IMG/VR virus record: IMGVR_UViG_3300020446_000050 | Location: 1 to 30,789 of that record | Strand: one strand, 5' to 3' | DNA from: a virus | Length of the DNA: 30,789 nt | Part shown: piece by piece, positions 4,858-30,015 of the stretch | Layout of the letters: every line of letters starts with the position of its first letter | How positions within the stretch are numbered: position 1 is the first letter of the stretch | Notes under the pieces: generated by a model | What the model was told of the DNA's origin: nothing | The model's database searches: none | The model's input: the letters and a program-made list of their open reading frames with translations, nothing else | Position numbers and translations under genes: made by a program

Positions 4858-7800
4858 ATGGGTACAATTAATGTAAAAAGTAACTTAACTGGTAAAACAT
4901 ACCCTATATTAATAGCTGGTAACAGGCCCACTGTAGCAGAAGACCAATTTATACAAAACTATATTGCTAGAGAAGATGGTGTTTTATTAGAGGCACCAGA
5001 AACAGCGGAAGAAGAAGGGAGTCTTATTGATGTCCCTAAAAGTTTTGTTGGAAGTTTTATAAAAGGTTTTACAGATTTACCCGGTGGTATAGCTTCTATC
5101 GGTGAAGGTGTTGGAGAAAAATTAGGATTTGATGTTGCACCCGGTGAATCAGGTATAGGAGAGGCTGCACAGAATTTTTCTAAAGGCGCTAGTAGGGCTT
5201 TAGCGGATACATTTGATTTTAATGAAAGTCCTTATAGTAAATTTGGTCAAGCAGGTGGGTCTCTTGCCTCTTTTTTAGCAGGTGGATGGGCTGTTAAAAG
5301 TGGTTTGGCAGTTGCAGGCGCTGCCCCTAAAATTGCTTCATACTTAGGTTTAGGCACTGTTGCAACACAGGGTGCGGCTTTAACATCACAAGATCAGATG
5401 AATAGGATTGCTAATTTTTTAGAAAATGGCGGTGTTATAGACGGTTCGCAAAAAGCAGATGCTGTATTATTAAGCGCTTTAATTGGTACATCAGAGGCAA
5501 TACCTTTTGCTGCGTTAAGCAAGAGCTTAGGCGCTTCTTTAAAAATTTTAAAAAAAGTAGACAAAAAAGACATAGATGAAGCAGTAAAAACTATAGGCGG
5601 CAGAATAAAAAGAAGCATTGGTGTTGGTATTGGAGAGGGTACTCAAGAGTTAGTTGCAGGTATACTTCAAGATTTAACTGAAAAAAATATTTACAACCCA
5701 GATGTTCAGGTTGGACAAAGTGCATATGATGATGCCGTTTATGGTGGTGGCGCAGGTTTTGCTTTAAATTTAATATTAGACAGTATTAGAGGCAGAAGAG
5801 TAAATCAATACGAAAAGAAACAAAAAGAATTAGATGATGATGCAGATGAAGCTGCTAGAGAAAATGCTAGTATGGCCCAAAATGCAAAAGATTATTTAAA
5901 AACCCAAGAAGATAAACAAGTAAAACTAATAGAGGGTCCGGGCCTTGGATTGCCTGCACCCGATGCTCCAATTATCCTACCATCTGGCGATCCTGTTACT
6001 GATATAGACAATCAATCAGCAGTTGATGCCCAAGAAAATCAAAAAAGAAAAAATACTGAAGATACATTACAGGCTGCAAGAGAGGCTACAACTCCATATA
6101 ATCTTGTGAAATTAGAGAGTTTGCCAGAAGATGAAGCGTTTAAAATACGTAAACAAAGAATAGAATTAAAAAAAGGCATACCTGTAGATGATCCTGTAAC
6201 AATACAAGAATTAGAAGAAGTTGTTGGCCCTGAAGCATCTTTAAGAGAAAAAATTTTACAAAAACCTACTTTAAATAAAGTGCCTGCATTAGAGGAAATA
6301 TCAGATGCTGAATTAGAAGCAGAGCGCATCACACAAGAAACAAAAGAACAAGTAATAAAATTTCAAGAAAATCTATTAAAACAAAAAATAATTAATAGAG
6401 CTGCAGCAAAAAGAGTATATCAAAAACTATACAAAGAAAAAATGCCAGATGATATTGCTGATGGTGCATTGGCTCAAATGTTAGGATCTGGTTTATTGCA
6501 GTATGATGGAAAAGGTAGATATTCACCTAGAAGTCAGGTAGATGTAAATTTAGATTTTATTGAACAGGCAAGAGCTTTATCTGAAAGAGCAAGGCAAATA
6601 AGAGAAGCTGATGATAGACTAAGAAAGCAAAGAAACATATTTCGTAATGATCCAGTTAATCTTGAAACTAACAGTCAACAATTAGATTTATTACAAAAAA
6701 GATATAGTGATATACAATTAGAGGCCTTTAATTTAGAAAATAAAGCTAATCAGGCTGTGCAAGGTCAACAAACAATACAAGCTAGAAGAATAGCTCCTGC
6801 ACTTGCGCCTAAAAAGGTCTTTGATCAAGCTACTAAAACAAAAGAAACTTCAGAATATGTATTAAAACAAAAGCGTGTTCTTGATGCTCTAAGAGCAGAG
6901 CTAAATAGAATAGGATTAACTGATGTAAGGTTAGAAGGTAGACCATTATTAGATGCTGCACAGTTAACAGAAGACCTTTCAAGAGGACAAGACATAGGTA
7001 TAACTGAAGGCATACAAGAAGTTTCACCTGATGGTAAACGTATCATAGCGTTAGCAATGGAAATATACGATCCTAATATGACTGATGCTGAGTTGCAGGC
7101 AAAGTTAGGAAGTGTCATGAATCATGAAATTATTCATGCATTAAAAAGTTTAAATGTTTTTACAGATCAGGAATATGACATATTAAAAAAAGCTGCAATG
7201 ACAAGAAAATATGTCAAAAGATCAAAAGGCACAGATACAACAAGAAGTTATACATATTATGAAAGAGCCACTCATGCTTATATACGTGATGGTATGCCAA
7301 ATGAACAAATAGTAGAAGAAGCTATTGCAGAGATGTATAGAGACTATACTGATGGTAAACTTAAATTTGGCGGTAAACCAAAGAGTCTTTTTGATAGAAT
7401 TGTTGCTTTTTTCAAAGCTATATTTGGTTCGCATGCAGATCAAGGTTTTACACAGACAGAACAAATTTTTGAAAACATAGGTACAACAGAGATAGAAAAG
7501 CAGATAGGTAGAAGAGATAGAAAGCCGGATGACCCTGAAACTGTTACTGAGCCACGTAGATCACGTATAATTATTGATAGATTGCCAGATTTACACAGAG
7601 GTTCTATAGGACCCCTGCCTATAGCGCATATTGTTAAGTCTAGATATTTACAATCGATAGGTATGCCTAATACACGGCCTGATAGGTATGTGCAAATAAA
7701 CGAAGAGTTAGCTAGAAGAATAGCCAAAGACTTTGATGAAGCAAAGCATGATCCTACTAATCCAGAAGTAATACAGGCATACAAAGCTATGGCTGATGAA

Positions 7801-10800
7801 ACATTTAATCAGTGGTTATTTATAAAAGATACAGGAATACAAATAGAGTTTATTAAGCCCAATCAAAGTAATCCTTATCCAAAAGGATCTAAAGATTTAT
7901 TACAAGATATTAGTAATAATCATATGTGGGTGTTCGCCACAGACGATGGCTTTGGTAGTGATGCTATAACGGACCAAGATATAGCAGAGAACCCATTACT
8001 ACAAACAACTGGTGAAATTATTGATGGTCGTGATGTTCGTTATAATGATTTATTTAGAATAGTTCACGATTACTTTGGTCATGCGCTAGAGGGTGCAACA
8101 TTTACAGCTAGAGGTGAAGAAAATGCATGGCAGGCACATAGTCGTATGTATACCCCGTTAGCCGCTAGAGCTATGACTACAGAAACAAGAGGACAAAACT
8201 CATGGCTTAACTACAGTGATGCTGTTGGGGACCATAATAGAAATAGTAAAAATAAAGCTGAAGAAACAATATACGCAGATCAAAAGATAACTTTATTATC
8301 TGATTTTGTGCAAACAGAGGGATTAGCTAATAATATAGAAGGAGCAATAGATGAAAGAGCAATTCGAGAAGATGAACGATTTAGTGAAACAAGAGATGAT
8401 GCAACTGACCGAGGAAGAGACGCAAGAAGAGATGGAAGACGGAGCGTTATACGAAGCACGATTGAACCGACAAAAGAAAGGAGGGAACCTGAGTTATCTC
8501 CGCAAAGGACAGTCAAGTTAACACACTTCTCTCCTGTTGAGGGCCTTCAAAGCATAGATCCTGAAAAAGAAAGGTCTAATCTATTTATGCGGGGAGAAGA
8601 AAGGCGAAGAACTTTTGAGGGATATCCTGCTAGAAGTTATTTTGCGGTAAATATATCTGATCCTAATGGTTATAATCCTGAGCAAAATGTTGGGGATAAC
8701 ATATATGAGGTGGATGTACCGTATGAAGGTATGTATGATTGGGAAGCAGACCCAGAAAAATTTAATGACGCTGCAAATGCAGAATTAGAAAACAATAGAC
8801 CTGATATTGTAGATCCAACTGGTCGTGTAAATTACATAACAACTGCCAAAGAAAGAATGATTAAAGAATCTGGTGCCACAGGTTATTGGATAAATGACCC
8901 TTTCCGTGGAACTATGGCGGCTATGTTCTATGAGTTAAGAGTTCCAGAGACTTATCAAGCTAAGAAGTATGATCAGGCATACAAAGATGGTATAAATCAA
9001 AAACGTGGCGTTGATGCAAAAAGAACCATGAGATCTAGAACTAGAGTTGTGGGACAAGAACACACAGTAAGCACAAGATTTCCTACAGCTAAAGAAAGAG
9101 AAGCAGATCCATCTACTAATTTATTATTTATAAATGGTGATATAATTAAAAATGATTCTAGATTATCTGAACAAGCAGCTAATTTAATTAAAGGATATAA
9201 TTTATCAGGTAACTCAAAACTTTACGTAAACTTTTCAAATGAAGAAATAATAGAAGATCATATACAGGCTATGACAGATAATATTTTATTTGTTCATGAT
9301 TCTTATCCTGTGGAATTTAGAGAGAGATCTGCTTTATGGTATGATGGTGCCAGAGATATTGTAGATAGATTTTCAAAAACATATAATTATAGCCCAGAAA
9401 TTGTCTCTGCTGTTATTGCTGCGCAATCACCACAGAAAGATTGGTACATGAATGTTTCCTTAGCGGAACGTGTATTAGATATAAGTAGAAACCATGGTGA
9501 TAAACAATTTACTCCAGAGATGATGGAAACTGGACAACGTATTTTTGGTAAGCCTCAGTATAAAGAAGCATTAGATTATATTAGTAATTCAAATAGAAAC
9601 TCTACAAGTTTAGATGATTTAAACCATTCTTTGCATAAGGCGATGTGGATTAGAATATTTGATGAAACATATAATGATAGGGGTCACAGAATAATAACAC
9701 CCGAGGGTCAGTTTTTAGATTATGCAAGAAGAAAAGATGGAACAAAGAAATTAACAGGCTGGGGTTCAAATAAGGAAATTTCCTCAGCAGTAGAGGCGTT
9801 GGGTTTAAAAGGGGGTCAATCTTTACAGCAAATATCAATATTATTAGGAGATAGACATAAAGTTAGAAGTTTTCATAATAATATGGTTTCACCTATGTCT
9901 CCAGATGGACACTCTACAATAGATACACATGCAGTAGCTGTGGCTTTTTTAAAACCTTTAAGTGGCAAGGCAGTAGAAGTTGACCATAACTTTGGTGTTT
10001 ACACAGAAAAAGGTAGATCAAAAACCTATGGTGTAATACCTAACTCTTCTATTACAGGGTCCAGAGGTATGTATGGGTTAATAGCTGATGCATATGCTAG
10101 AGCCGCAGAGCAAAGAGGTATTTTGCCACGACAAATGCAATCAATAACATGGGAGCCAATAAGAGGATTATTTCCAGATACATTTAAAAATCAAAAACAA
10201 AATGTTGATAAGATAAATGGAATTTGGGACTCATACATTGACGGTGGATTAACTTTAGACCAAACAAGACAGGAGATAATAAATGCTACCCCAGATGGAT
10301 TTACGGAACCAAGTTGGGCAAGACCCTCTGATACAATACCTCAATTCAGTAGGGATGCCAGTTACGAGACAGAACTATCTAGACCTTATGTATCCGGAAG
10401 GAATACCAGAAATGACAGCGGAATTGGAAGAGATTCTACCGGAGTTCCTGAGACTAGACGCTCAAGAATAAGAGCAACACCTTCTAGTGAAAGACAGAGA
10501 CAGGCACAACAGAATGATCGTGACATTGCACAGGCTCAGTTAAATATAAGATATAATAATTTAGCAGGTATTTTAGCTAAAGGATTAAAAGTAGTGCCTG
10601 AATCATTTTTATTTGGCAACACTAGAGCGCAAGCCGCACAAAAGATAGTGCAAAAATATCAAGACTCTTTTCAACCTGTTGGCGCAATGATGGATGAGTT
10701 GCGTGATAAAGGCTACACAATAGCCGATGCTATGGACCCTTATCTAAGAGAGGTAAATTCTTCAGGTATTATAGGAGATAAATTAACTGATTTAGAAGAA

Positions 10801-13419
10801 ACTATAGTTAAACCAACTATTGAAGAAATTAAAAAAATAAAAGTTTCGGATGAAAAATTAACAGAATTAAAAAATGCCTCTGCTAGAGCCGCTGCGCAAG
10901 AACAAGGAGAGGGATTAGTTAATAAAACTATAGATTCTTCAATTGATGTTAAGTTAGCTTTAACAGATATATATCTTTACGCTATGCATGCAAAAGAGAG
11001 AAATATAGATATAGCAAATCGTTATGCAAGACCTAATGGTTCAGGATTATCAAAGACTGAAGCTGATGTAATATTAGATTGGTTTGACAGTTTAGATCAG
11101 TCAAATAAAGATATTTTTCAATTTATTAATAAACAAACTAGAAGAATAGTTAATAGCACTAATAATATTAGATATGAAAGTGGATTAATAGATAAAGCAG
11201 AATACGATGAGCATCAAGAAGGCGCTAGATTTAAATATTATGTGCCTTTACGTGGTGATTTAGACATTGATGTTGAGATGAAAGAAGATAGACAAAATAC
11301 ATTACGTAAAACAACTAATTACTTTGGCGCTTTAGGAAGAGAAGACAAAGTGGCCAGAGGTCGTGGTATAAAGTATGCAGAAAATATTTTTGCATCAGTT
11401 ATTGCACAAAACCAAAGAGCGATAGATAGATCAGAAAGAAATAAAGTAGGTCAAAGTCTTTTAAGATTATTAAGAGGTCAAGAAGAACAGCCTGATGGTA
11501 GCACGGCTATAAACGATGCGTTGGCTACAGATTTACAGCAAAATTTTGCAGAAATTACAACTGAAGCAGACCCTATGGACCCACATCAGATTGCAATAAA
11601 AGAGAATGGTCAACAAGTTTACGTAAACTTTTACAGAGAAAGTATGTCCAGATCTTTCAAGCATCATTACGAACCTAAAACACATCATGTTGCATTTAGA
11701 ACTTTATCTAAATTAAATAGATTTTTATCTAATGTTAATACTTCTTATAACCCAGCTTTTGTTATTCCAAACTTTGCAAAAGACTTGGAAACAGCTTTAG
11801 TAAATATACAACAACATGATGCAGAAGGTATTACAAAAGAGATAACCAGAGATGTTGCTGGTGCTATAAATGGGATTAGAAAAGTTTTTGGTGTTGGTGC
11901 AAATCCTTTTGGCAAAAGAACACCAGACACATCTAGTTATTGGTCACAAGAATATTTAAAATTTGTAAAGGCAGGTGGCAAGAACGCCACTAATCAAATG
12001 GGAACTGTACAAGATCAAATGGAGAATCTTAGTAAGTTGTTAATGGATATTAGTGAAGCTAAAACATTAGGATTTAAAAGAAATGGATTCTTTAGAAAAA
12101 AAGGAAGAAGTCTTTTACAGTTTTTAGAAGATTACAATACTGTTATTGAGAATGGTGTTCGTGTTGCCACGTTTACTAATTTGAAAAAAAGAGGATTTAC
12201 TGATGCTAGGGCTGCCGAAGCAGCTAGGAACGTAACAGTAAACTTTGCTAAAGGTGGTGAAGATAAAGTATTTATGAACTCTTTGTATTTATTTTATAAC
12301 GCATCTTTGCAAGGTAGTATGGCTATATACAATGCGGCTTATAAATCTAAAAAGGTAAGAAAAATATTAGGTGGCATAATAGTTTATGGATTTTTGCAAG
12401 ATCAACTATTAGCATTTTTAGACGATCCGTCAGAAGATGATGATCCAATAACTTATGATAAATTAAATGAATATGATTTAGAGCATAATTTAATATTTCC
12501 ATCTTTTGGTTTAATGGAAGATAAGTTTATAGCAATACCATTGGCTTATGGACTTAATATGCCATTTAATTTAGGCAGATCTCTTAGCCGCTACACACGA
12601 GGCGAATATACTTTTGGTCAAGCAGCAAATAGTATTTTTGACACAACTATGGAAACATTATCTCCTTTTGGTGCAATAGAGAACTTTGAAACATACGTAA
12701 TACCAACTGCTTTTAAACCGGCAGTAGAAATGTATATTAATAAAAATTACAGAAACGATCCTATATACAAAGAAACGCCTATGTACTCAACAACGAATGT
12801 TCCTGATGCTTATACACATTGGACAAATACCGGTGCTGTATCTAAGTTTATAGTGCAAACTATAAATGATTTAACATTTGGAGATGAAGTAGAAAGTGGT
12901 TTGATTGATATATCTCCGGATACAATAGAATATTTTTATGAGTATGTAATAGGAGGTGCTGGAGCTTTTATAGGTAGATCAGCTAATCTAGTTTTTGATG
13001 TCATACCGGCTATAGCTTCCGGAGACTTTGAGGGTAATTTACCAAATAGAATACCATTTATTAGAAAAGTTATAAAACAGCCGTCAGATAGAGTAGATAC
13101 ACAAAATTATTTAGAAAAGAGAAAAGAGCTATACACGATATTTTCTAGAATAGATTTGGCAAGAAGAAGGGGTGACCCCGAAACTATACGTAAACTTATC
13201 GCTAGGTACGATGACGAGGTTCGTATATATGGTAGATTTAAGGCTTTAGATAACGCAAGAAACAGATTATTGAGACAGATCAAAGAGTTAGAACGTAATC
13301 TTCGACTGTCAGATGATGTCAGACAAAAACTTATTAAATTACGTAGAGAACGAATACAAGAGATCATGAGAAAAGGTATTCAGTTAATGAGAAGTGTGGG
13401 CATAAGACAAACTGCATGA
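4858..13419 (+). CDS. Giant polyvalent virion protein (metallopeptidase, ART-like and LPD38 regions), 2,853 aa
   Basis: One uninterrupted ORF of 2,853 residues. Visible parts in order: a short N-terminal unit (residues 1-45); a Gly/Ala hydrophobic region (about 120-320); charged helices; a zinc-peptidase motif HEIIH at 756-760 with a likely third ligand Glu in EEAIAEMYRD near 825; a block about 905-1,160 with RIVHDYFGHALEG and GQNSWLN; an ADP-ribosyltransferase-like block about 1,218-1,362 (LTHFSP to FRGTMAAMFYEL); a block about 1,420-1,820 with AAQSPQKDWYMNV and STIDTHAVAVAF resembling a phage helix-hairpin-helix-like domain; then an LPD38-type end (NPAFVIPNFAKDLETALVN near 2,300; VENG-type and TVNFAKGG blocks; hydrophobic stretch about 2,502-2,521). 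Such polyvalent proteins are thought to be ejected with the DNA and act in the host. The motif RRSxI recurs at 900, 1,194 and 1,867, between domains. Domain names beyond the peptidase motif and LPD38 are tentative. Confidence 0.88.
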   Translation: MGTINVKSNLTGKTYPILIAGNRPTVAEDQFIQNYIAREDGVLLEAPETAEEEGSLIDVPKSFVGSFIKGFTDLPGGIASIGEGVGEKLGFDVAPGESGIGEAAQNFSKGASRALADTFDFNESPYSKFGQAGGSLASFLAGGWAVKSGLAVAGAAPKIASYLGLGTVATQGAALTSQDQMNRIANFLENGGVIDGSQKADAVLLSALIGTSEAIPFAALSKSLGASLKILKKVDKKDIDEAVKTIGGRIKRSIGVGIGEGTQELVAGILQDLTEKNIYNPDVQVGQSAYDDAVYGGGAGFALNLILDSIRGRRVNQYEKKQKELDDDADEAARENASMAQNAKDYLKTQEDKQVKLIEGPGLGLPAPDAPIILPSGDPVTDIDNQSAVDAQENQKRKNTEDTLQAAREATTPYNLVKLESLPEDEAFKIRKQRIELKKGIPVDDPVTIQELEEVVGPEASLREKILQKPTLNKVPALEEISDAELEAERITQETKEQVIKFQENLLKQKIINRAAAKRVYQKLYKEKMPDDIADGALAQMLGSGLLQYDGKGRYSPRSQVDVNLDFIEQARALSERARQIREADDRLRKQRNIFRNDPVNLETNSQQLDLLQKRYSDIQLEAFNLENKANQAVQGQQTIQARRIAPALAPKKVFDQATKTKETSEYVLKQKRVLDALRAELNRIGLTDVRLEGRPLLDAAQLTEDLSRGQDIGITEGIQEVSPDGKRIIALAMEIYDPNMTDAELQAKLGSVMNHEIIHALKSLNVFTDQEYDILKKAAMTRKYVKRSKGTDTTRSYTYYERATHAYIRDGMPNEQIVEEAIAEMYRDYTDGKLKFGGKPKSLFDRIVAFFKAIFGSHADQGFTQTEQIFENIGTTEIEKQIGRRDRKPDDPETVTEPRRSRIIIDRLPDLHRGSIGPLPIAHIVKSRYLQSIGMPNTRPDRYVQINEELARRIAKDFDEAKHDPTNPEVIQAYKAMADETFNQWLFIKDTGIQIEFIKPNQSNPYPKGSKDLLQDISNNHMWVFATDDGFGSDAITDQDIAENPLLQTTGEIIDGRDVRYNDLFRIVHDYFGHALEGATFTARGEENAWQAHSRMYTPLAARAMTTETRGQNSWLNYSDAVGDHNRNSKNKAEETIYADQKITLLSDFVQTEGLANNIEGAIDERAIREDERFSETRDDATDRGRDARRDGRRSVIRSTIEPTKERREPELSPQRTVKLTHFSPVEGLQSIDPEKERSNLFMRGEERRRTFEGYPARSYFAVNISDPNGYNPEQNVGDNIYEVDVPYEGMYDWEADPEKFNDAANAELENNRPDIVDPTGRVNYITTAKERMIKESGATGYWINDPFRGTMAAMFYELRVPETYQAKKYDQAYKDGINQKRGVDAKRTMRSRTRVVGQEHTVSTRFPTAKEREADPSTNLLFINGDIIKNDSRLSEQAANLIKGYNLSGNSKLYVNFSNEEIIEDHIQAMTDNILFVHDSYPVEFRERSALWYDGARDIVDRFSKTYNYSPEIVSAVIAAQSPQKDWYMNVSLAERVLDISRNHGDKQFTPEMMETGQRIFGKPQYKEALDYISNSNRNSTSLDDLNHSLHKAMWIRIFDETYNDRGHRIITPEGQFLDYARRKDGTKKLTGWGSNKEISSAVEALGLKGGQSLQQISILLGDRHKVRSFHNNMVSPMSPDGHSTIDTHAVAVAFLKPLSGKAVEVDHNFGVYTEKGRSKTYGVIPNSSITGSRGMYGLIADAYARAAEQRGILPRQMQSITWEPIRGLFPDTFKNQKQNVDKINGIWDSYIDGGLTLDQTRQEIINATPDGFTEPSWARPSDTIPQFSRDASYETELSRPYVSGRNTRNDSGIGRDSTGVPETRRSRIRATPSSERQRQAQQNDRDIAQAQLNIRYNNLAGILAKGLKVVPESFLFGNTRAQAAQKIVQKYQDSFQPVGAMMDELRDKGYTIADAMDPYLREVNSSGIIGDKLTDLEETIVKPTIEEIKKIKVSDEKLTELKNASARAAAQEQGEGLVNKTIDSSIDVKLALTDIYLYAMHAKERNIDIANRYARPNGSGLSKTEADVILDWFDSLDQSNKDIFQFINKQTRRIVNSTNNIRYESGLIDKAEYDEHQEGARFKYYVPLRGDLDIDVEMKEDRQNTLRKTTNYFGALGREDKVARGRGIKYAENIFASVIAQNQRAIDRSERNKVGQSLLRLLRGQEEQPDGSTAINDALATDLQQNFAEITTEADPMDPHQIAIKENGQQVYVNFYRESMSRSFKHHYEPKTHHVAFRTLSKLNRFLSNVNTSYNPAFVIPNFAKDLETALVNIQQHDAEGITKEITRDVAGAINGIRKVFGVGANPFGKRTPDTSSYWSQEYLKFVKAGGKNATNQMGTVQDQMENLSKLLMDISEAKTLGFKRNGFFRKKGRSLLQFLEDYNTVIENGVRVATFTNLKKRGFTDARAAEAARNVTVNFAKGGEDKVFMNSLYLFYNASLQGSMAIYNAAYKSKKVRKILGGIIVYGFLQDQLLAFLDDPSEDDDPITYDKLNEYDLEHNLIFPSFGLMEDKFIAIPLAYGLNMPFNLGRSLSRYTRGEYTFGQAANSIFDTTMETLSPFGAIENFETYVIPTAFKPAVEMYINKNYRNDPIYKETPMYSTTNVPDAYTHWTNTGAVSKFIVQTINDLTFGDEVESGLIDISPDTIEYFYEYVIGGAGAFIGRSANLVFDVIPAIASGDFEGNLPNRIPFIRKVIKQPSDRVDTQNYLEKRKELYTIFSRIDLARRRGDPETIRKLIARYDDEVRIYGRFKALDNARNRLLRQIKELERNLRLSDDVRQKLIKLRRERIQEIMRKGIQLMRSVGIRQTA
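9216..9235. repeat. Palindromic repeat, copy 2 (inside the giant gene)
   Basis: AAAACTTTACGTAAACTTTT matches the family consensus, with C on both sides of the centre, so the outer arms do not pair perfectly. It is translated in frame as KLYVNF within the giant ORF. Confidence 0.8.
11613..11632. repeat. Palindromic repeat, copy 3 (inside the giant gene)
   Basis: ACAAGTTTACGTAAACTTTT has one mismatch (position 2) to the consensus and contains a perfect 16-bp palindrome, 11,615-11,630. It is read as QVYVNF, nearly the same peptide as copy 2, so a coding origin is possible. Confidence 0.75.
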
Positions 13420-22886: not shown

Positions 22887-24053
22887 TTACACTCCCATTG
22901 CATTAAGTATGTTTCGCTGAACTCTGCCACTCATGACATTCTCTGCTCTTCTAAAGTTTGAGGATGCACAGTTTATGGTCTCAGCTATGTTATACCTACG
23001 ATTATTGTAGGTTTGAGCAGTTTCTCTGTCGTTACCTCTAAAAGGTATATTGCCCATGCCTTGCTGTGTTTCTTCAATTGTCCAAGCCTTTGTTTGGTAA
23101 ACCAAATAATACAGATCTTTCTCCATACTGATAATGCCATCGTGGCTTGTAATAATATCAACAGTATAAGCCTCAAGACCATTAGCTGTAATTCTGTCAG
23201 AAACTTTAAGAGGCTTGGCACTAGCAACAAATGCTGTTTTGCTTTTATATACTGTGGTTGCTAAACCTTTCATGTAGACATTCTTAAACCATGATGGAGA
23301 CAAAGAGACCTCATTGAAATGCTCGTAGTATTGCCAATTATCTGCTCTTCCTACAGTAGATGGTTTAATAGCTGTTTCTGCTCTTAATGCATCAGCATTA
23401 ATCTTAACATTGGTTCTAGCCATATTGTCATCCCACCATTTTTTAGCAAAGGCATTAGTGAGTACAGCATACTTGCTGTTAACAGCTTGACCATTGAAGA
23501 AACCATGCTCGTAATTACGTTCTTTACGAAACACTTTTTTACCATCAATCTTATTGCTGTAAATGGCAGACTTATCTTTACGAGCCTTTCTGTGTTGCTT
23601 GATCCAAGCACTACAATTGTAAATGCTGTCTAAACCATGATTACCAAAATGATCTTTGTGTTTGGTAAACATAAAAACAAAATCTTTTTCTTCAGCAGAT
23701 AAATCGTCTGCATGATATGAATAATTAGATCCGGCTTTTACTAGACTAGCTTTTTGGTTTTCGTTTAATCCAAATGATTTATATCCCTCGTTTAAAAAGT
23801 TGAGATAATGCTTTAAGACTATTTGATCCTTAAACTCTTGAGATTTAGGATCTTGTTTTTTTCCAAAATTATGTATCATAAAATACTCCATATAATGATA
23901 GTAGTTGGCTGATTTCATGCTTTCGCAATCGTCAGTAGGAACACACATTCCTATATCAGCATAGTTAAAATCCCTAGGTACAATCACACACAGACATATC
24001 GTTTCGCCTCTGTGTGACGTTCCTAGAGCCTTGTTTTTATCTAAAAGTAGCAT
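22887..24053 (-). CDS. Unknown protein, 388 aa, cotranscribed with the VWA gene
   Basis: The start overlaps the stop of the VWA gene (TAATG). The product is soluble, about 390 residues, with a mixed fold: MLLLDKNKALGTSHRGETICLCVIVPRDFNYADIGMCVP at the N-terminus, a Lys-rich middle (DGKKVFRKERNYEHGFFNGQAVNSKYAVLTNAFAKKWWDDNMA), NWQYYEHFNEVSLSPSWFKNVYMKGLATTVYKSKTAFVASAKPLKVSDRITANG, and a C-terminal TAQTYNNRRYNIAETINCASSNFRRAENVMSGRVQRNIL. I see no enzyme motif. The direct coupling to the VWA/MoxR pair suggests it may be a client, adaptor or effector of that module. Unrecognised family. Confidence 0.78.
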   Translation of the reverse strand: MLLLDKNKALGTSHRGETICLCVIVPRDFNYADIGMCVPTDDCESMKSANYYHYMEYFMIHNFGKKQDPKSQEFKDQIVLKHYLNFLNEGYKSFGLNENQKASLVKAGSNYSYHADDLSAEEKDFVFMFTKHKDHFGNHGLDSIYNCSAWIKQHRKARKDKSAIYSNKIDGKKVFRKERNYEHGFFNGQAVNSKYAVLTNAFAKKWWDDNMARTNVKINADALRAETAIKPSTVGRADNWQYYEHFNEVSLSPSWFKNVYMKGLATTVYKSKTAFVASAKPLKVSDRITANGLEAYTVDIITSHDGIISMEKDLYYLVYQTKAWTIEETQQGMGNIPFRGNDRETAQTYNNRRYNIAETINCASSNFRRAENVMSGRVQRNILNAMGV

Positions 24054-26731: not shown

Positions 26732-27925
26732 TTAAGAGAGTAAAGCCTCGACAGTATCGTCTACAACTTTCTGCTCTTTCTCAGCATCATCAATTGCTTT
26801 CCTACCTTTGTCAGCAATCTCAAATCTGTTCTTTAGTCTGACCTCAAACTCTTCAAGTTCTTTTGCTGACATAATCAAACCATCTCTTTGCTTACCGGTC
26901 TTAGTCTTCAGACCTACTAGCTTATCGATGATTGTATCCAATGGAGATTTAACATCCTCTCCTTTGTTGTGTGCAATGATCTTAGCTTGAGATTTAAGAT
27001 CTAACTTAGCAAACAGATCCAAGATGTAGGTCTTGGTAAGATTGCTTGATGGTAGATCATGCTTGTTTGTAAAAAGTACACAATTCCTTTTGAACAAATC
27101 TGCTTGACCTTTTGTCATGTCGCAACGTGTCTGTAACGTGGTTAATATTTCATTGGTCGCATCTTCTGAAATATTACCGGTATCAGATCTTGGCAATGCA
27201 TTAATTGGTATCATTAATGTCGCATACTGATCTATTCTTATAGCACTCATGTCAGCAGAGTTCTGCTTGTTAGATCCTTTTAAAAGGTTGTGCTGTTGCT
27301 CTTGTTTAGCTAATTGCTTAACGACATCGTCAGCAATGATTGATTTAGTTTTCTGCATTATGGTATCTCCTTTTGTTGCAGTTTGTTTAGGTTGGTTGTC
27401 GTTGTCTAGTATGTCCTTATCAATGATAGGATTAACTAGGTCTCTTCTTAAATATCTGTAGATTGCTTTGAAACAATCTCCATGTGGTCTGCTGTAGTTG
27501 TTTCTAAATCTCTTTATCCTAGCACCTTTGTAAAACTGTACATGGTGGGCAACCTCATGGCTGACACTTATAAGATATGTATGATCTAGATTGAGGCATA
27601 CTCTGCCACCTATTTGAGGATCACTATCGTAACTTTTATATTCTCTGTGATAATGTTTTTCATCTAGGTGTTGCCAATAACTAAGATTAATTTTGATGCT
27701 GTATGCACATGCATTTGTTGCACCGGCACGTTTAGAATTAATAACCTTAGTTACACGTACTGCTCTATCAACATCAGCAGTTGTTATTCCTAACTCGTAT
27801 TCTTTTTTCTTTAGGTGGTTCATGCATTTACGAACCATCTTTTTAATATTGTTAGTGTGAGCAGTAATTTCTTTTTTACTGTAGTTATATTTATCATGAG
27901 ATAAATTTATATTTTTATTAGGCAT
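26732..27925 (-). CDS. SprT-like metalloprotease fused to a C-terminal helical domain
   Basis: Residues 1-165 form a SprT-like zinc protease: HEVAHHVQF (His123-Glu124...His127) and a third ligand His148 in RPHGDCFKAIYRYL. SprT/Spartan-like enzymes often cut DNA-bound proteins. After a short linker, residues 190-397 form a separate helical domain (KTKSIIADDVVKQLAKQEQQHNLLKG, later KSPLDTIIDKLVGLKTKTGK and KDEEKEQ-like acidic helices). A strong SD, AGGAGA, and an in-frame ATG sit exactly at this boundary, so the C-terminal part may also be made alone. The start at 27,925 has GGAG at six bases, just downstream of the second hammerhead ribozyme. Confidence 0.8.
   Translation of the reverse strand: MPNKNINLSHDKYNYSKKEITAHTNNIKKMVRKCMNHLKKKEYELGITTADVDRAVRVTKVINSKRAGATNACAYSIKINLSYWQHLDEKHYHREYKSYDSDPQIGGRVCLNLDHTYLISVSHEVAHHVQFYKGARIKRFRNNYSRPHGDCFKAIYRYLRRDLVNPIIDKDILDNDNQPKQTATKGDTIMQKTKSIIADDVVKQLAKQEQQHNLLKGSNKQNSADMSAIRIDQYATLMIPINALPRSDTGNISEDATNEILTTLQTRCDMTKGQADLFKRNCVLFTNKHDLPSSNLTKTYILDLFAKLDLKSQAKIIAHNKGEDVKSPLDTIIDKLVGLKTKTGKQRDGLIMSAKELEEFEVRLKNRFEIADKGRKAIDDAEKEQKVVDDTVEALLS
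27356..27371 (-). promoter_or_regulatory. Internal ribosome binding site and start codon in the SprT-like gene
   Basis: AAAAGGAGATACCATA then ATG (27,358-27,356) on the minus strand. AGGAGA with an eight-base spacer is as good as the SDs of stand-alone genes here. The ATG is Met190, in frame, at the junction between the protease and the C-terminal helical domain. Confidence 0.6.
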
Positions 27926-27949: not shown

Positions 27950-28012
27950 CCTAGGACAAAGAGCAGTAAATACTGCTCAATGTTTCGACCTCAGTAGGTC
28001 TCATCAGCTAGG
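27950..28012 (-). ncRNA. Hammerhead ribozyme, type I (second)
   Basis: Read on the minus strand: CCUAG (stem I), CUGAUGA core (28,007-28,001), stem II GACCU-ACUG-AGGUC (28,000-27,987), GAAA (27,986-27,983), stem III CAUUGAGCAGUA with loop UU (27,969-27,970) and UACUGCUCUUUG (27,957-27,968) with one internal UU/UU mismatch, then GUC (cleavage after C at 27,955) and stem I CUAGG (27,954-27,950). All core residues and the canonical GUC site are present. Open stem I makes it type I. Its first base pair abuts the TAG stop of the 151-aa gene. Confidence 0.93.
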
Positions 28013-28468
28013 CTATATGGCTGATAAAGTTATTGAATGTGGATGACCATCTTCGTAAGCCTCTGCTACACGATCAACAGATTTATTTTCCATCCTCAAT
28101 GCCACAGATGGTTTGACATAGAAAATGTCCATTGTTCCATCTGCCCATTCGTAAGCCTCGTCTTCATTCTTTTCTAGAACAAGAGGCACAGCCTTTTGTG
28201 GCTTACCAACATTTCGATATTGAACACCATCGCAATCGCATCCCTCAGTAATAGGAACAACGTATCCATCCTCTGAGTTTTTATAGATGTAAGAAAATCT
28301 GTTAGCTTTTTCTTCCAACTCATCACGTATGCCATAATACAGCATGTCATCGATGGCTATTTTTCTCATCGTTCTTCTGAGTTCTTTTACATCCAAACCT
28401 TGTTGTACTGATTTAGTATAAAGTCTCACTAGCATTTTACATTTTTCTAAGTATTTTTCTTTATTCAT
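28013..28468 (-). CDS. Unknown protein between two hammerhead ribozymes, 151 aa
   Basis: The ATG at 28,468 (MNKEKYLEKCKMLVRLY) has GGAGA six bases before it; an in-frame ATG four codons earlier is part of the SD. The product is soluble and acidic, with a helical N-terminus (RLYTKSVQQGLDVKELRRTMRKIAIDDMLYYGIRDELEEKANRF) and a beta-rich second half (YIYKNSEDGYVVPITEGCDCDGVQYRNVGKPQKAVPLVLEKNEDEAYEWADGTMDIFYVKPSVALRME). CDCDG is a possible metal or redox site. No family is recognised. Its special feature is context: a type III hammerhead lies upstream and a type I hammerhead directly after its stop, so cleavage would isolate this message. Confidence 0.85.
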   Translation of the reverse strand: MNKEKYLEKCKMLVRLYTKSVQQGLDVKELRRTMRKIAIDDMLYYGIRDELEEKANRFSYIYKNSEDGYVVPITEGCDCDGVQYRNVGKPQKAVPLVLEKNEDEAYEWADGTMDIFYVKPSVALRMENKSVDRVAEAYEDGHPHSITLSAI

Positions 28469-28488
28469 GATTATCTCCATATTTGATT

Positions 28489-28541
28489 AACTGTTTCGAC
28501 CTTTTGGTCTCATCAGATGCAACACACATTGCATTACAGTT
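28489..28541 (-). ncRNA. Hammerhead ribozyme, type III (first)
   Basis: Read on the minus strand: AACUG (stem III, 28,541-28,537), U16.1 and A17 (cleavage after 28,535), stem I AUGCAA (28,534-28,529), loop UGUGUG, UUGCAU, then CUGAUGA core (28,516-28,510), stem II GACC-AAAA-GGUC (28,509-28,498), GAAA (28,497-28,494), and stem III CAGUU (28,493-28,489). Stems I, II and III are fully complementary. The site is GUA, an allowed NUH triplet. Stem III is open, so this is type III. It lies between the hairpin after the upstream gene and the SD of the 151-aa gene. Confidence 0.93.
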
Positions 28542-28543
28542 GA

Positions 28544-28571
28544 GGGGCAATTTCTTGCCCCCCTTTTTTTT
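28544..28571 (+). terminator. GGGGCAA hairpin, terminator-like on the plus strand
   Basis: GGGGCAA (28,544-28,550), loop TTTC, TTGCCCC (28,555-28,561), followed by a run of eight T (28,564-28,571) on the plus strand. The genes run on the minus strand, where the hairpin has A's before it and no U tract. It may stop antisense transcripts or shield the 3' end of the upstream gene. A near-copy lies at 28,953. Confidence 0.6.
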
Positions 28572-28926
28572 AACTTTCATTTGGAACATTCCATCCACCA
28601 AATTCTGATGGCTCAATGCCAACTTTCTCTTGGCTGTCTGTAAAATTGATTAACCAATCTACATCGTAGTTTGATCCATTGATCCAAAGATCATGTAACT
28701 CTTTACCAATCATCGAGGTTATGATCTGAGATATTGGATTACAAATTTTAGAAACTAGATTGTGATCTAATCCATTTACTAAATCCATTGTCTCGTAGTT
28801 GCCAACAAACTTACCACCAAACTCTGTGGCTGTTGGACTTTCTACATCAGCAATGTTTCCAAAGTTGTAAGCATCAGATAATAGTCTTAGTAATTTGATT
28901 TCGTCTTGATTTAATTTCTTGTACAT
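28570..28926 (-). CDS. Unknown protein, 118 aa
   Basis: I start this at ATG 28,926 (MYKKLNQDEIKLL), six bases after GGAGA; an ATG four codons upstream overlaps the SD. The protein is helical and acidic (KLLRLLSDAYNFGNIADVESPTATEFGGKFVGNYETMDLVNGLDHNLVSKICNPISQIITSMIGKELHDLWINGSNYDVDWLINFTDSQEKVGIEPSEFGGWNVPNES). The phrase GNYETMDLVNGLDHNLVS and the end PSEFGGWNVPNES are distinct. I recognise no family. It lies between two GGGGCAA hairpins and shares its leader style with both neighbours. Confidence 0.78.
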   Translation of the reverse strand: MYKKLNQDEIKLLRLLSDAYNFGNIADVESPTATEFGGKFVGNYETMDLVNGLDHNLVSKICNPISQIITSMIGKELHDLWINGSNYDVDWLINFTDSQEKVGIEPSEFGGWNVPNES

Positions 28927-28952
28927 AATGATCTCCATTTTTAATTAGTTGA

Positions 28953-28972
28953 GGGGGCAATCTCTTGCCCCC
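28953..28972. other. GGGGGCAA hairpin, near-copy of the element at 28,544
   Basis: GGGGGCAA (28,953-28,960), loop TCTC, TTGCCCCC (28,965-28,972). On the minus strand both hairpins are followed by UCAACU. It lies right after the stop of the 160-aa gene. It is a candidate mRNA 3' end element; no long T tract follows. Confidence 0.75.
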
Positions 28973-28977
28973 ATATT

Positions 28978-29460: not shown

Positions 29461-30015
29461 ATGATACTCCATTGTTATTTGATTGATTTGAAATGTTACA
29501 ACCTCTATTTGGAAACTCGTAAGAAACTACTAGCCCATATCGTCATCCTCATCAGACCGAATTGTGGGGGCTGTATCGCTCTTGCCTTTTCGAGGTCATG
29601 ACCGAAACAAGTTCCGGTCTCCGAGATCCTAATTTCCCAAGTAGGTTAAAAAAGGGATGTTTGCTTTACAGTTCAAACGAGTTGCCAAACAGAGGCTGTA
29701 CCATTTATATAATATTTTTAGACCAATAATACAAGCACTAAAGTTGATATTATTTAACTTATAGGAACATTATTTTACTTACTAAGACTAAATCTTCTGT
29801 AATCCAAGGTGGACAACAAAAACGCTGAAACTTACTTTTAGGTAACAATATAGCCTAAACTGCTTACATGTGCTGTATGCCTCTTAAATCGACAGCAATG
29901 AATATTTCACGAAATGAGACTACAAACAAAGATAATAAAGTGTTATCATTGTTAAAGGTCGCAGGTCTAAGGAACATGATATTAAAACTTTACGTAAACT
30001 TTTGAGGATAAAAAT
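29461..30015. other. Divergent intergenic region, 555 bp, no gene seen
   Basis: The region lies between the divergent starts of the 160-aa gene and the small terminase. It holds a 10-bp palindrome GGTCATGACC (29,594-29,603) and an overlapping hairpin (GACCG 29,600-29,604 with CGGTC 29,615-29,619). It ends with palindromic repeat copy 8. No convincing consensus promoter or ORF was found, although promoters for both directions must lie here. A CUGAUGA on the minus strand near 29,550 lacks the rest of a hammerhead. The region could also hold an origin or regulator sites. Confidence 0.7.
29984..30003. repeat. Palindromic repeat, copy 8 (upstream of terminase)
   Basis: AAAACTTTACGTAAACTTTT directly precedes the SD GAGG (30,004-30,007) of the terminase gene, the same placement as before lysozyme (copy 1) and the VWA gene (copy 7). 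Confidence 0.88.

Follow-up and report, generated by a model that had tools for sequence, protein, structure and literature searches.

Two hammerhead ribozymes bracket an exchangeable gene slot in a viral operon and are probable intercistronic processing sites

Prokaryotic hammerhead ribozymes are often tied to phages, and clusters of them flank small, non-conserved ORFs in prophages, according to passages of a 2017 review (PMC6155905) that treat their role as an open question. Passages of an earlier report (Perreault et al. 2011; PMC3088659) describe clustered hammerheads that flank single genes or short gene blocks of varying identity in prophages, and propose that such clusters process transcripts into gene-length mRNAs. 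In the same passages, three of the clusters are reported to cleave in vitro and one in E. coli, and a halovirus transcript has its mapped 5' end no more than three nucleotides from where a hammerhead variant is cleaved. Here, we describe a viral stretch of 30,789 nucleotides (the window; IMG/VR record IMGVR_UViG_3300020446_000050) in which two hammerheads, HHR1 and HHR2, bracket a single ORF, gC. As in the prophage clusters of those passages, at least two close hammerheads flank a gene or short block, both in the window and in 22 other contigs, and the flanked genes vary. The locus differs from what those passages describe in that the ribozymes form a slot with type III followed by type I in one phage clade, that the type I ribozyme is fused to a stop codon while the type III ribozyme precedes a ribosome-binding site, and that the hammerheads checked here score below the Rfam cut-offs.

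The RNA that the pair would release also resembles retrozymes and other circular RNAs made by ribozymes, in that a hammerhead cuts at either end and the termini are 5'-OH and 2',3'-cyclic phosphate. In those RNAs, the unit has one and the same hammerhead at each end, as a direct repeat. The present locus, in contrast, has a type III ribozyme at one end and a type I at the other, carries protein-coding cargo of varying size, and is accompanied by no ligase in the contigs searched. The early mRNA of T7 is likewise polycistronic and is cut between genes, in that case by RNase III, leaving hairpin ends; the difference is that the site in our locus would cut itself without a host nuclease. Finally, in the PeSL cassettes of T4-type phages exchangeable small genes are joined by an intergenic regulatory element that stays constant, and an early promoter lies inside the shuffled linker. 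A constant intergenic element also joins exchangeable small genes in the present case, but this element is a ribozyme, and only a weak sigma-70-like match (9/12) overlaps HHR1, in a region with 19 such matches against a shuffle mean of 25.6.

The ribozyme pair and its comparative support

Table 1. Coordinates of the features of the window
Feature	Coordinates	Strand	Predicted cut	Position or content	Basis
Leader	29497-29699	minus		about 200 nt, ahead of the operon's first gene	alignment of six sequences
gA/gB linker	28926..28973	minus		hairpin and AACT of the HHR1 linker, without ribozyme	
GC-rich hairpin	28542..28563	minus		between the upstream gene's stop and HHR1	fold
HHR1, type III hammerhead	28541-28489	minus	28535/28534		sequence, fold, model, covariation
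Weak sigma-70-like match	28499-28470			overlaps HHR1	
gC, 151-aa ORF	28013..28468	minus		likely start at second ATG (28468); SD GGAG 28478-28475; stop TAG 28015-28013	
HHR2, type I hammerhead	28012-27950	minus	27955/27954		sequence, fold, model
gD, first gene of the core operon	26732..27925	minus		start codon 30 nt past the HHR2 cut	
Conserved element	24050-23965	minus		gG/gH junction, before the third hammerhead	
Third hammerhead, type III, triplet AUA	23908..23960	minus	23954/23953	gG/gH intercistronic leader	covariance model
Long ORF	4858-13419	plus		one ORF of 2853 aa, over a quarter of the window's length	

The initial annotation had placed two same-strand hammerheads around one ORF with its own SD, and this description was confirmed, with coordinates that proved exact and a GGAG ahead of gC. 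HHR1 reads AACUGUA^AUGCAAUGUGUGUUGCAU-CUGAUGA-GACCAAAAGGUC-GAAACAGUU (the caret marks the predicted cut), with stem I closed, stem III open and GUA as its triplet, and its cut would leave a 5'-OH at 28534. HHR2 reads CCUAG-CUGAUGA-GACCUACUGAGGUC-GAAACA..(hairpin)..UGUC^CUAGG, with GUC as its triplet and the cut after 27955. Both contain the full core (CUGANGA and GAAA), three helices and an NUH triplet. The stretch between the two predicted cuts (28534 to 27955) is exactly 580 nt long, as had been claimed for the product of double cleavage. A hammerhead fold is predicted for both ribozymes, and 4 of 200 shuffles of HHR1 and 3 of 200 of HHR2 fold likewise.

Neither ribozyme is matched by Rfam at the gathering threshold. 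In a relaxed search, HHR1 reaches 38.0 bits with Hammerhead_3 (cut-off 48.5; E 7.6e-06), and HHR2 is hit only by RAGATH-1 (20.0 bits, cut-off 56.3) and HH9 (18.9 bits, cut-off 52). Because the core and helices are satisfied, we read these sub-threshold scores as a limit of model coverage. The covariance models built here score HHR1 at 85.1 bits (R1) and HHR2 at 95.7 bits (R2), each model including the sequence that it scores. A simple hammerhead scan finds a match in 10 of 200 shuffled windows, three of these matches being as strong, by the thresholds chosen here, as those of the window, and a lone hammerhead match is therefore weak evidence.

Among the aligned type III copies (HHR-III; 19 distinct sequences), both partners have changed and still pair at 12 of 17 base pairs; compensatory cells number 77 against 20.5 in shuffles, and fall to five or fewer when the partner is slid by 1-3 columns. 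The type I copies (HHR-I; 16 distinct sequences) show such two-sided change at 3 of 20 pairs, with 9 compensatory cells against 2.5 in shuffles. All cells of this alignment (100%) are paired and its covariation lies in stem I, stem II being invariant and hence uninformative. One of the five covariation measures, that of further pair types, exceeds shuffles in neither alignment: the observed value is reached by all of 500 shuffles in one and by 245 of 500 in the other. Both alignments were collected with the motif in view, by pattern or model, which biases them toward the fold; the variable helix parts that carry the compensatory changes lie outside what the search patterns fixed. Taken as sequences, HHR1 and HHR2 look like real ribozymes, the comparative evidence being the solid part of that case.

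Most type III copies depart from the textbook form in one respect: the basal pair of stem II (10.1/11.1) is replaced by U.U in 15 of the 19 distinct sequences (alignment A4). This form is the commoner type III variant and a candidate ribozyme. For the same reason, a reading of the gA/gC type III copy of three contigs (L021, L011, L042) as degenerate was rejected. The loop I sequence UGUG is widely common to type III copies, and together with the U.U base it may be the reason that the Rfam models miss them.

A further type III hammerhead lies 29 nt before the likely start of gH (23879) and recurs there in 13 other contigs, so that 14 of the 42 mapped have it; five of the six pairs of its stem III differ from those of HHR1, with pairing kept. 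A location inside the gH coding sequence was considered and rejected. The N-terminal part of the gH ORF is in another frame in L014, L045 and L054, and the ribozyme region is missing in L051 and L055, which places the ribozyme upstream of the gH start. With it, the transcript would have at least three cutting sites. The conserved element before it, which contains a CACACAGAGGCGAAACGAUAUGUCUGUGUGUG hairpin, persists in L051, L057 and L058, all of them devoid of this hammerhead.

A gene slot with changing cargo

The product of gC had been called unrecognised, and it stays so: no Pfam family matches at E 0.01, no match was found among 50,697 phage records, and a single weak PHROG match (E 0.0053) has no assigned function. 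An AlphaFold2 model from eight sequences has a mean pLDDT of 49.7. Ten other slot or neighbour proteins fare similarly, with only weak PHROG matches of unassigned function for two of them.

In order to follow the slot across relatives, eight gC loci, 15 stretches found by the HHR-III pattern, 27 found by the HHR-I pattern and 23 ATPase loci were merged by contig into 42 contigs, including the window, and searched with the covariance models. The type I ribozyme is present in 33 of these, a type III ribozyme before the core operon in 30, and both in 23; a single kind occurs in the remainder of each set (type I only in 10 of 42, type III only in 7 of 42), and neither ribozyme is thus essential. 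These counts come from a sample that the 27 and 15 pattern-derived stretches bias toward ribozymes, and many of the contigs are mutually close relatives, so that they are not independent events. A fairer set is formed by the 23 contigs found through the ATPase only: two begin beyond the slot (L052, L059), and the other 21 all carry at least one ribozyme there, with both in 10, type I only in five and type III only in six. An earlier assignment of contigs as having type I without any type III was wrong for 14, where divergent type III copies came to light with the covariance model. Among the bacterial genomes searched (genome_contigs), none matches the HHR-I pattern exactly. The top-ranked annotated relative of the operon ATPase is in Roseobacter phage CRP-7 (28.1%), whose 9.4-kb segment matches the models only weakly (15.5 bits at best, E 0.54).

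Where both ribozymes occur, type III lies upstream of type I in 23 of 23 contigs; in one of them (L058) the contig ends within the type III copy. Between the nearest type III and type I copies the spacing is 334 to 814 nt, and from the first type III copy it extends up to 1163 nt (L021). The pair brackets one or two genes in 14 arrangements of ORF clusters among the 23 contigs, some of these clusters being possibly spurious as the ORF caller is crude. The cargo is gC in the window, L001 and L041, gA with gC in L021, and elsewhere ORF clusters 44+57, 95, 45+44, 44, 133, 59+30, 8+30, 30, 8, 51, 130+131 or 85+45. Hence, the operon begins with a slot, framed by the two ribozymes, in which genes are exchanged, and the cargo moves independently of the ribozymes.

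The distribution of gC itself illustrates this point. Homologues occur at eight loci besides the window, and in the resulting nine contigs gC stands alone in the bracket in only the three named above. L021 has gC alone between a variant type III and the type I ribozyme; in L011 and L042 a variant type III precedes gC and the type I after it is absent; in L006 gC lies downstream of the ribozyme pair; and the contigs of two more distant homologues (L007, L008) give no covariance-model match at E up to 10. The initial annotation had suggested that the ORF and its ribozymes might form one RNA-processed cassette, and had asked whether they travel together. Bracketing by the pair does recur, but the ORF and the two ribozymes are not one unit, with one ribozyme or none beside gC elsewhere; since gC is found without ribozymes in some relatives, that suggestion is contradicted in part.

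The GC-rich hairpin and an AACT linker precede HHR-III in close relatives as they do in the window, and the gA/gB linker, which has the same elements, looks like the result of a clean ribozyme gain or loss. The leader ahead of the operon's first gene is conserved; 11 of its 51 predicted pairs change on both sides, many others are broken in some rows, and Rfam finds nothing above chance in it. In some other relatives the leader is a different one and has HHR-III at its end. Downstream of the slot, gD is 397 aa long in the window against about 208 aa in L006, L011, L017, L042, L043 and L044, and its extra N-terminal part contains HEVAH, which we take to be a zinc-protease-like motif.

Placement of type III and type I hammerheads relative to genes

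A variant type III pattern was found in 60 viral stretches, some with same-strand rows of copies (five each in L065 and L075, four in L079, three each in L096 and L097); Rfam at the gathering threshold matched none in the 12 such loci given to it. A second class of type I ribozymes, with stem I CCAA/TTGG, occurs in at least 120 viral stretches (L070, L103-L218), and the scanner reports similar copies in L085 and L096. Among the 136 matches listed for this class, 99 passed the stem filter and 81 were distinct; four near contig starts were dropped, leaving 77.

Type III ribozymes lie ahead of translation starts. When ORFs of 40 aa or more are counted, an SD-led start codon lies 15-50 nt past the 3' end of 53 of 61 distinct copies, compared to 170 of 3050 random positions on the same strand (5.6%); one of 62 copies had been dropped for its short flank. 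Four of the eight that break the rule are in L065, and for six of the eight there is a start codon at 18-48 nt that lacks an SD, under a crude calling of such sites.

Type I ribozymes lie on stop codons. The stop of an ORF of at least 40 aa falls within -12 to +20 of CUGA in 33 of 33 copies of the clade, against 144 of 1650 random positions; in the window, the TAG of gC directly adjoins stem I, the first base of HHR2 being the next base after the stop. The stops involved are a TAG before stem I (7 copies), a TAG inside stem I (11 copies and that of L056), the TGA of CUGA itself (11) and a TAA in loop II (3), and they span three reading frames and 12 ORF clusters. In the second class, among the matches listed, 64 of 77 copies have a stop at the ribozyme against 422 of 3956 random positions, and 13 of 77 break the rule. 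The random rate for this rule is thus 9-11%. As the TGA of CUGA is a stop that every hammerhead offers in one frame, the 11 of 33 and 17 of 64 stops of this kind are to be read with caution; without them, 47 of 77 copies of the second class, among the matches listed, still have a stop at the ribozyme.

The rule, with type III before a ribosome-binding site and type I on a stop, holds in the clade and in loci with different ribozyme sequences. On cleavage, a type III ribozyme stays on the downstream RNA and a type I on the upstream RNA, and with these positions each ribozyme would be kept by the gene that it adjoins. The order of the two types is another matter. Among neighbouring pairs within 2.5 kb in 159 further loci, which include a few of the same clade (for example L072, on the contig of L059), we counted 21 III-III, 25 I-I, six III-I and eight I-III, so that the III-then-I bracket appears to be a feature of the clade and the local punctuation to be more general. 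Apart from PMC3088659 and reviews, no paper among the matches listed describes the position rule or a two-ribozyme gene slot, as judged by titles and abstract openings, mostly outside subscription journals. As far as this search shows, both appear new; Figure 3 of PMC3088659, a source seen here in passages, may show a similar rule.

Processing of the operon message and rival explanations

We consider it likely, from sequence comparison, that the hammerheads are intercistronic processing sites that flank a plug-in slot in one leftward polycistronic transcript. That the pair might simply set mRNA boundaries had been raised as an alternative in the initial annotation, and it is this reading that the covariation, the positions and the exchange of cargo support best. 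As the arrangement is kept while the gene is swapped, the cutting of a message into gene-sized mRNAs is likelier than the making of a special circular RNA.

The slot would accept small accessory genes between the conserved leader and the core operon. A cut at HHR1, just upstream of the gene, would leave a 5'-OH end held in stem I, before the ribosome-binding site, while HHR2, built onto the stop of the preceding gene, would leave a message whose 3' end is held in stem III and bears a 2',3'-cyclic phosphate. Both ribozyme bodies would remain on the slot RNA, giving a hairpin-capped monocistronic mRNA apart from the leader and the core genes, and the third hammerhead would split the operon once more, before gH. 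In fold predictions, the end fragments of the 580-nt RNA have hairpins at the cuts, flush at the 5' end and with one unpaired base at the 3' end. The upstream message would have the GC-rich hairpin near its 3' end after the HHR1 cut, and the 5' end of the gD message would be nearly bare. Bacterial mRNA is protected by hairpins at its ends, and 5'-OH ends either withstand RNase E or serve as substrates for RtcB. We infer that the ribozymes are active in infected cells, that one transcript covers the genes, that the hairpin ends stabilise the messages and that a ribosome terminating at HHR2 holds back the folding and cutting of this ribozyme.

The initial annotation had put first a different fate for the 580-nt RNA, namely circularisation through ends of the kind that RtcB-type ligases join. 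In this reading, a host RtcB or a chimeric hammerhead would connect the two ends of the slot RNA, once both cuts are made, to give a circular mRNA. The end chemistry would be suitable, 5'-OH and 2',3'-cyclic phosphate being the right termini for ligation, the III-then-I order is constant within the clade, and the 3' UUGUC could pair over 4 bp with the ACAG of HHR1. A circle needs two flanking cuts and a ligation, however, whereas punctuation needs neither a set order nor a ligase, and the order is not general, I-then-III being as common as III-then-I in the further loci. No RtcB or RNA_ligase match was found in the window or nine related contigs (two of them near 60 kb, completeness not established), in a search that recovered these families in 9 and 6 of 14 control genomes, respectively. 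The length that would be released varies over the several hundred nucleotides given above, and the joined ends fold into separate hairpins, on which ground the chimeric hammerhead at the junction was rejected. Passages of PMC3088659 also state that circular or spliced products of the clusters were undetected (data not shown there). The claim of circularisation thus gained no positive support; closure through a host ligase is possible, and a circular mRNA as the purpose of the pair is very unlikely.

The repeated association of different ORFs with the same linkers, exemplified by the last codons TTCCACAAGACAAACAGCCTAG before HHR-I for both ORF clusters 44 and 8, would also be expected if the ribozyme sequences were patches of DNA homology for swapping slot genes, RNA cleavage being incidental. 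Changes on both sides of a pair cost DNA identity, though, and are expected only if the RNA fold matters, and recombination has no need of the type-specific placement at stops and ribosome-binding sites; we regard such linkers as an improbable explanation. The main effect of cleavage might instead be reduced expression, either of the slot gene or of the operon after it. Self-cleavage of the glmS ribozyme yields 5'-OH products that are degraded in B. subtilis, and after the HHR2 cut the 5' end of gD would be nearly free of structure. The slot RNA, on the other hand, would keep its ribozyme hairpins, and the upstream message would have the GC-rich hairpin close to its end; a role as decay switches is, in our view, unlikely.

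Within the preferred reading of the pair as processing sites, we tentatively propose a stronger version, which is possible yet doubtful as a whole: hammerhead topology may act as a code for mRNA ends, with type III marking 5' ends at the SD and type I marking 3' ends at the stop, combined with a self-excising slot and a ribosome-gated 3' end. Each ribozyme would then stay with its own gene as an end cap. Because the type I ribozyme contains or touches the stop of the preceding gene, a terminating ribosome would gate the 3' end formation of its own message.

From the position rule one can predict the ends that form, the hairpin that stays on each message, and a competition between translation and type I cleavage, which makes the role of prokaryotic hammerheads directly testable. 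The 60 stretches with the variant type III pattern and the at least 120 with the second type I class also point to many viral hammerheads outside the standard RNA models, as judged from the 12 loci covered by Rfam.
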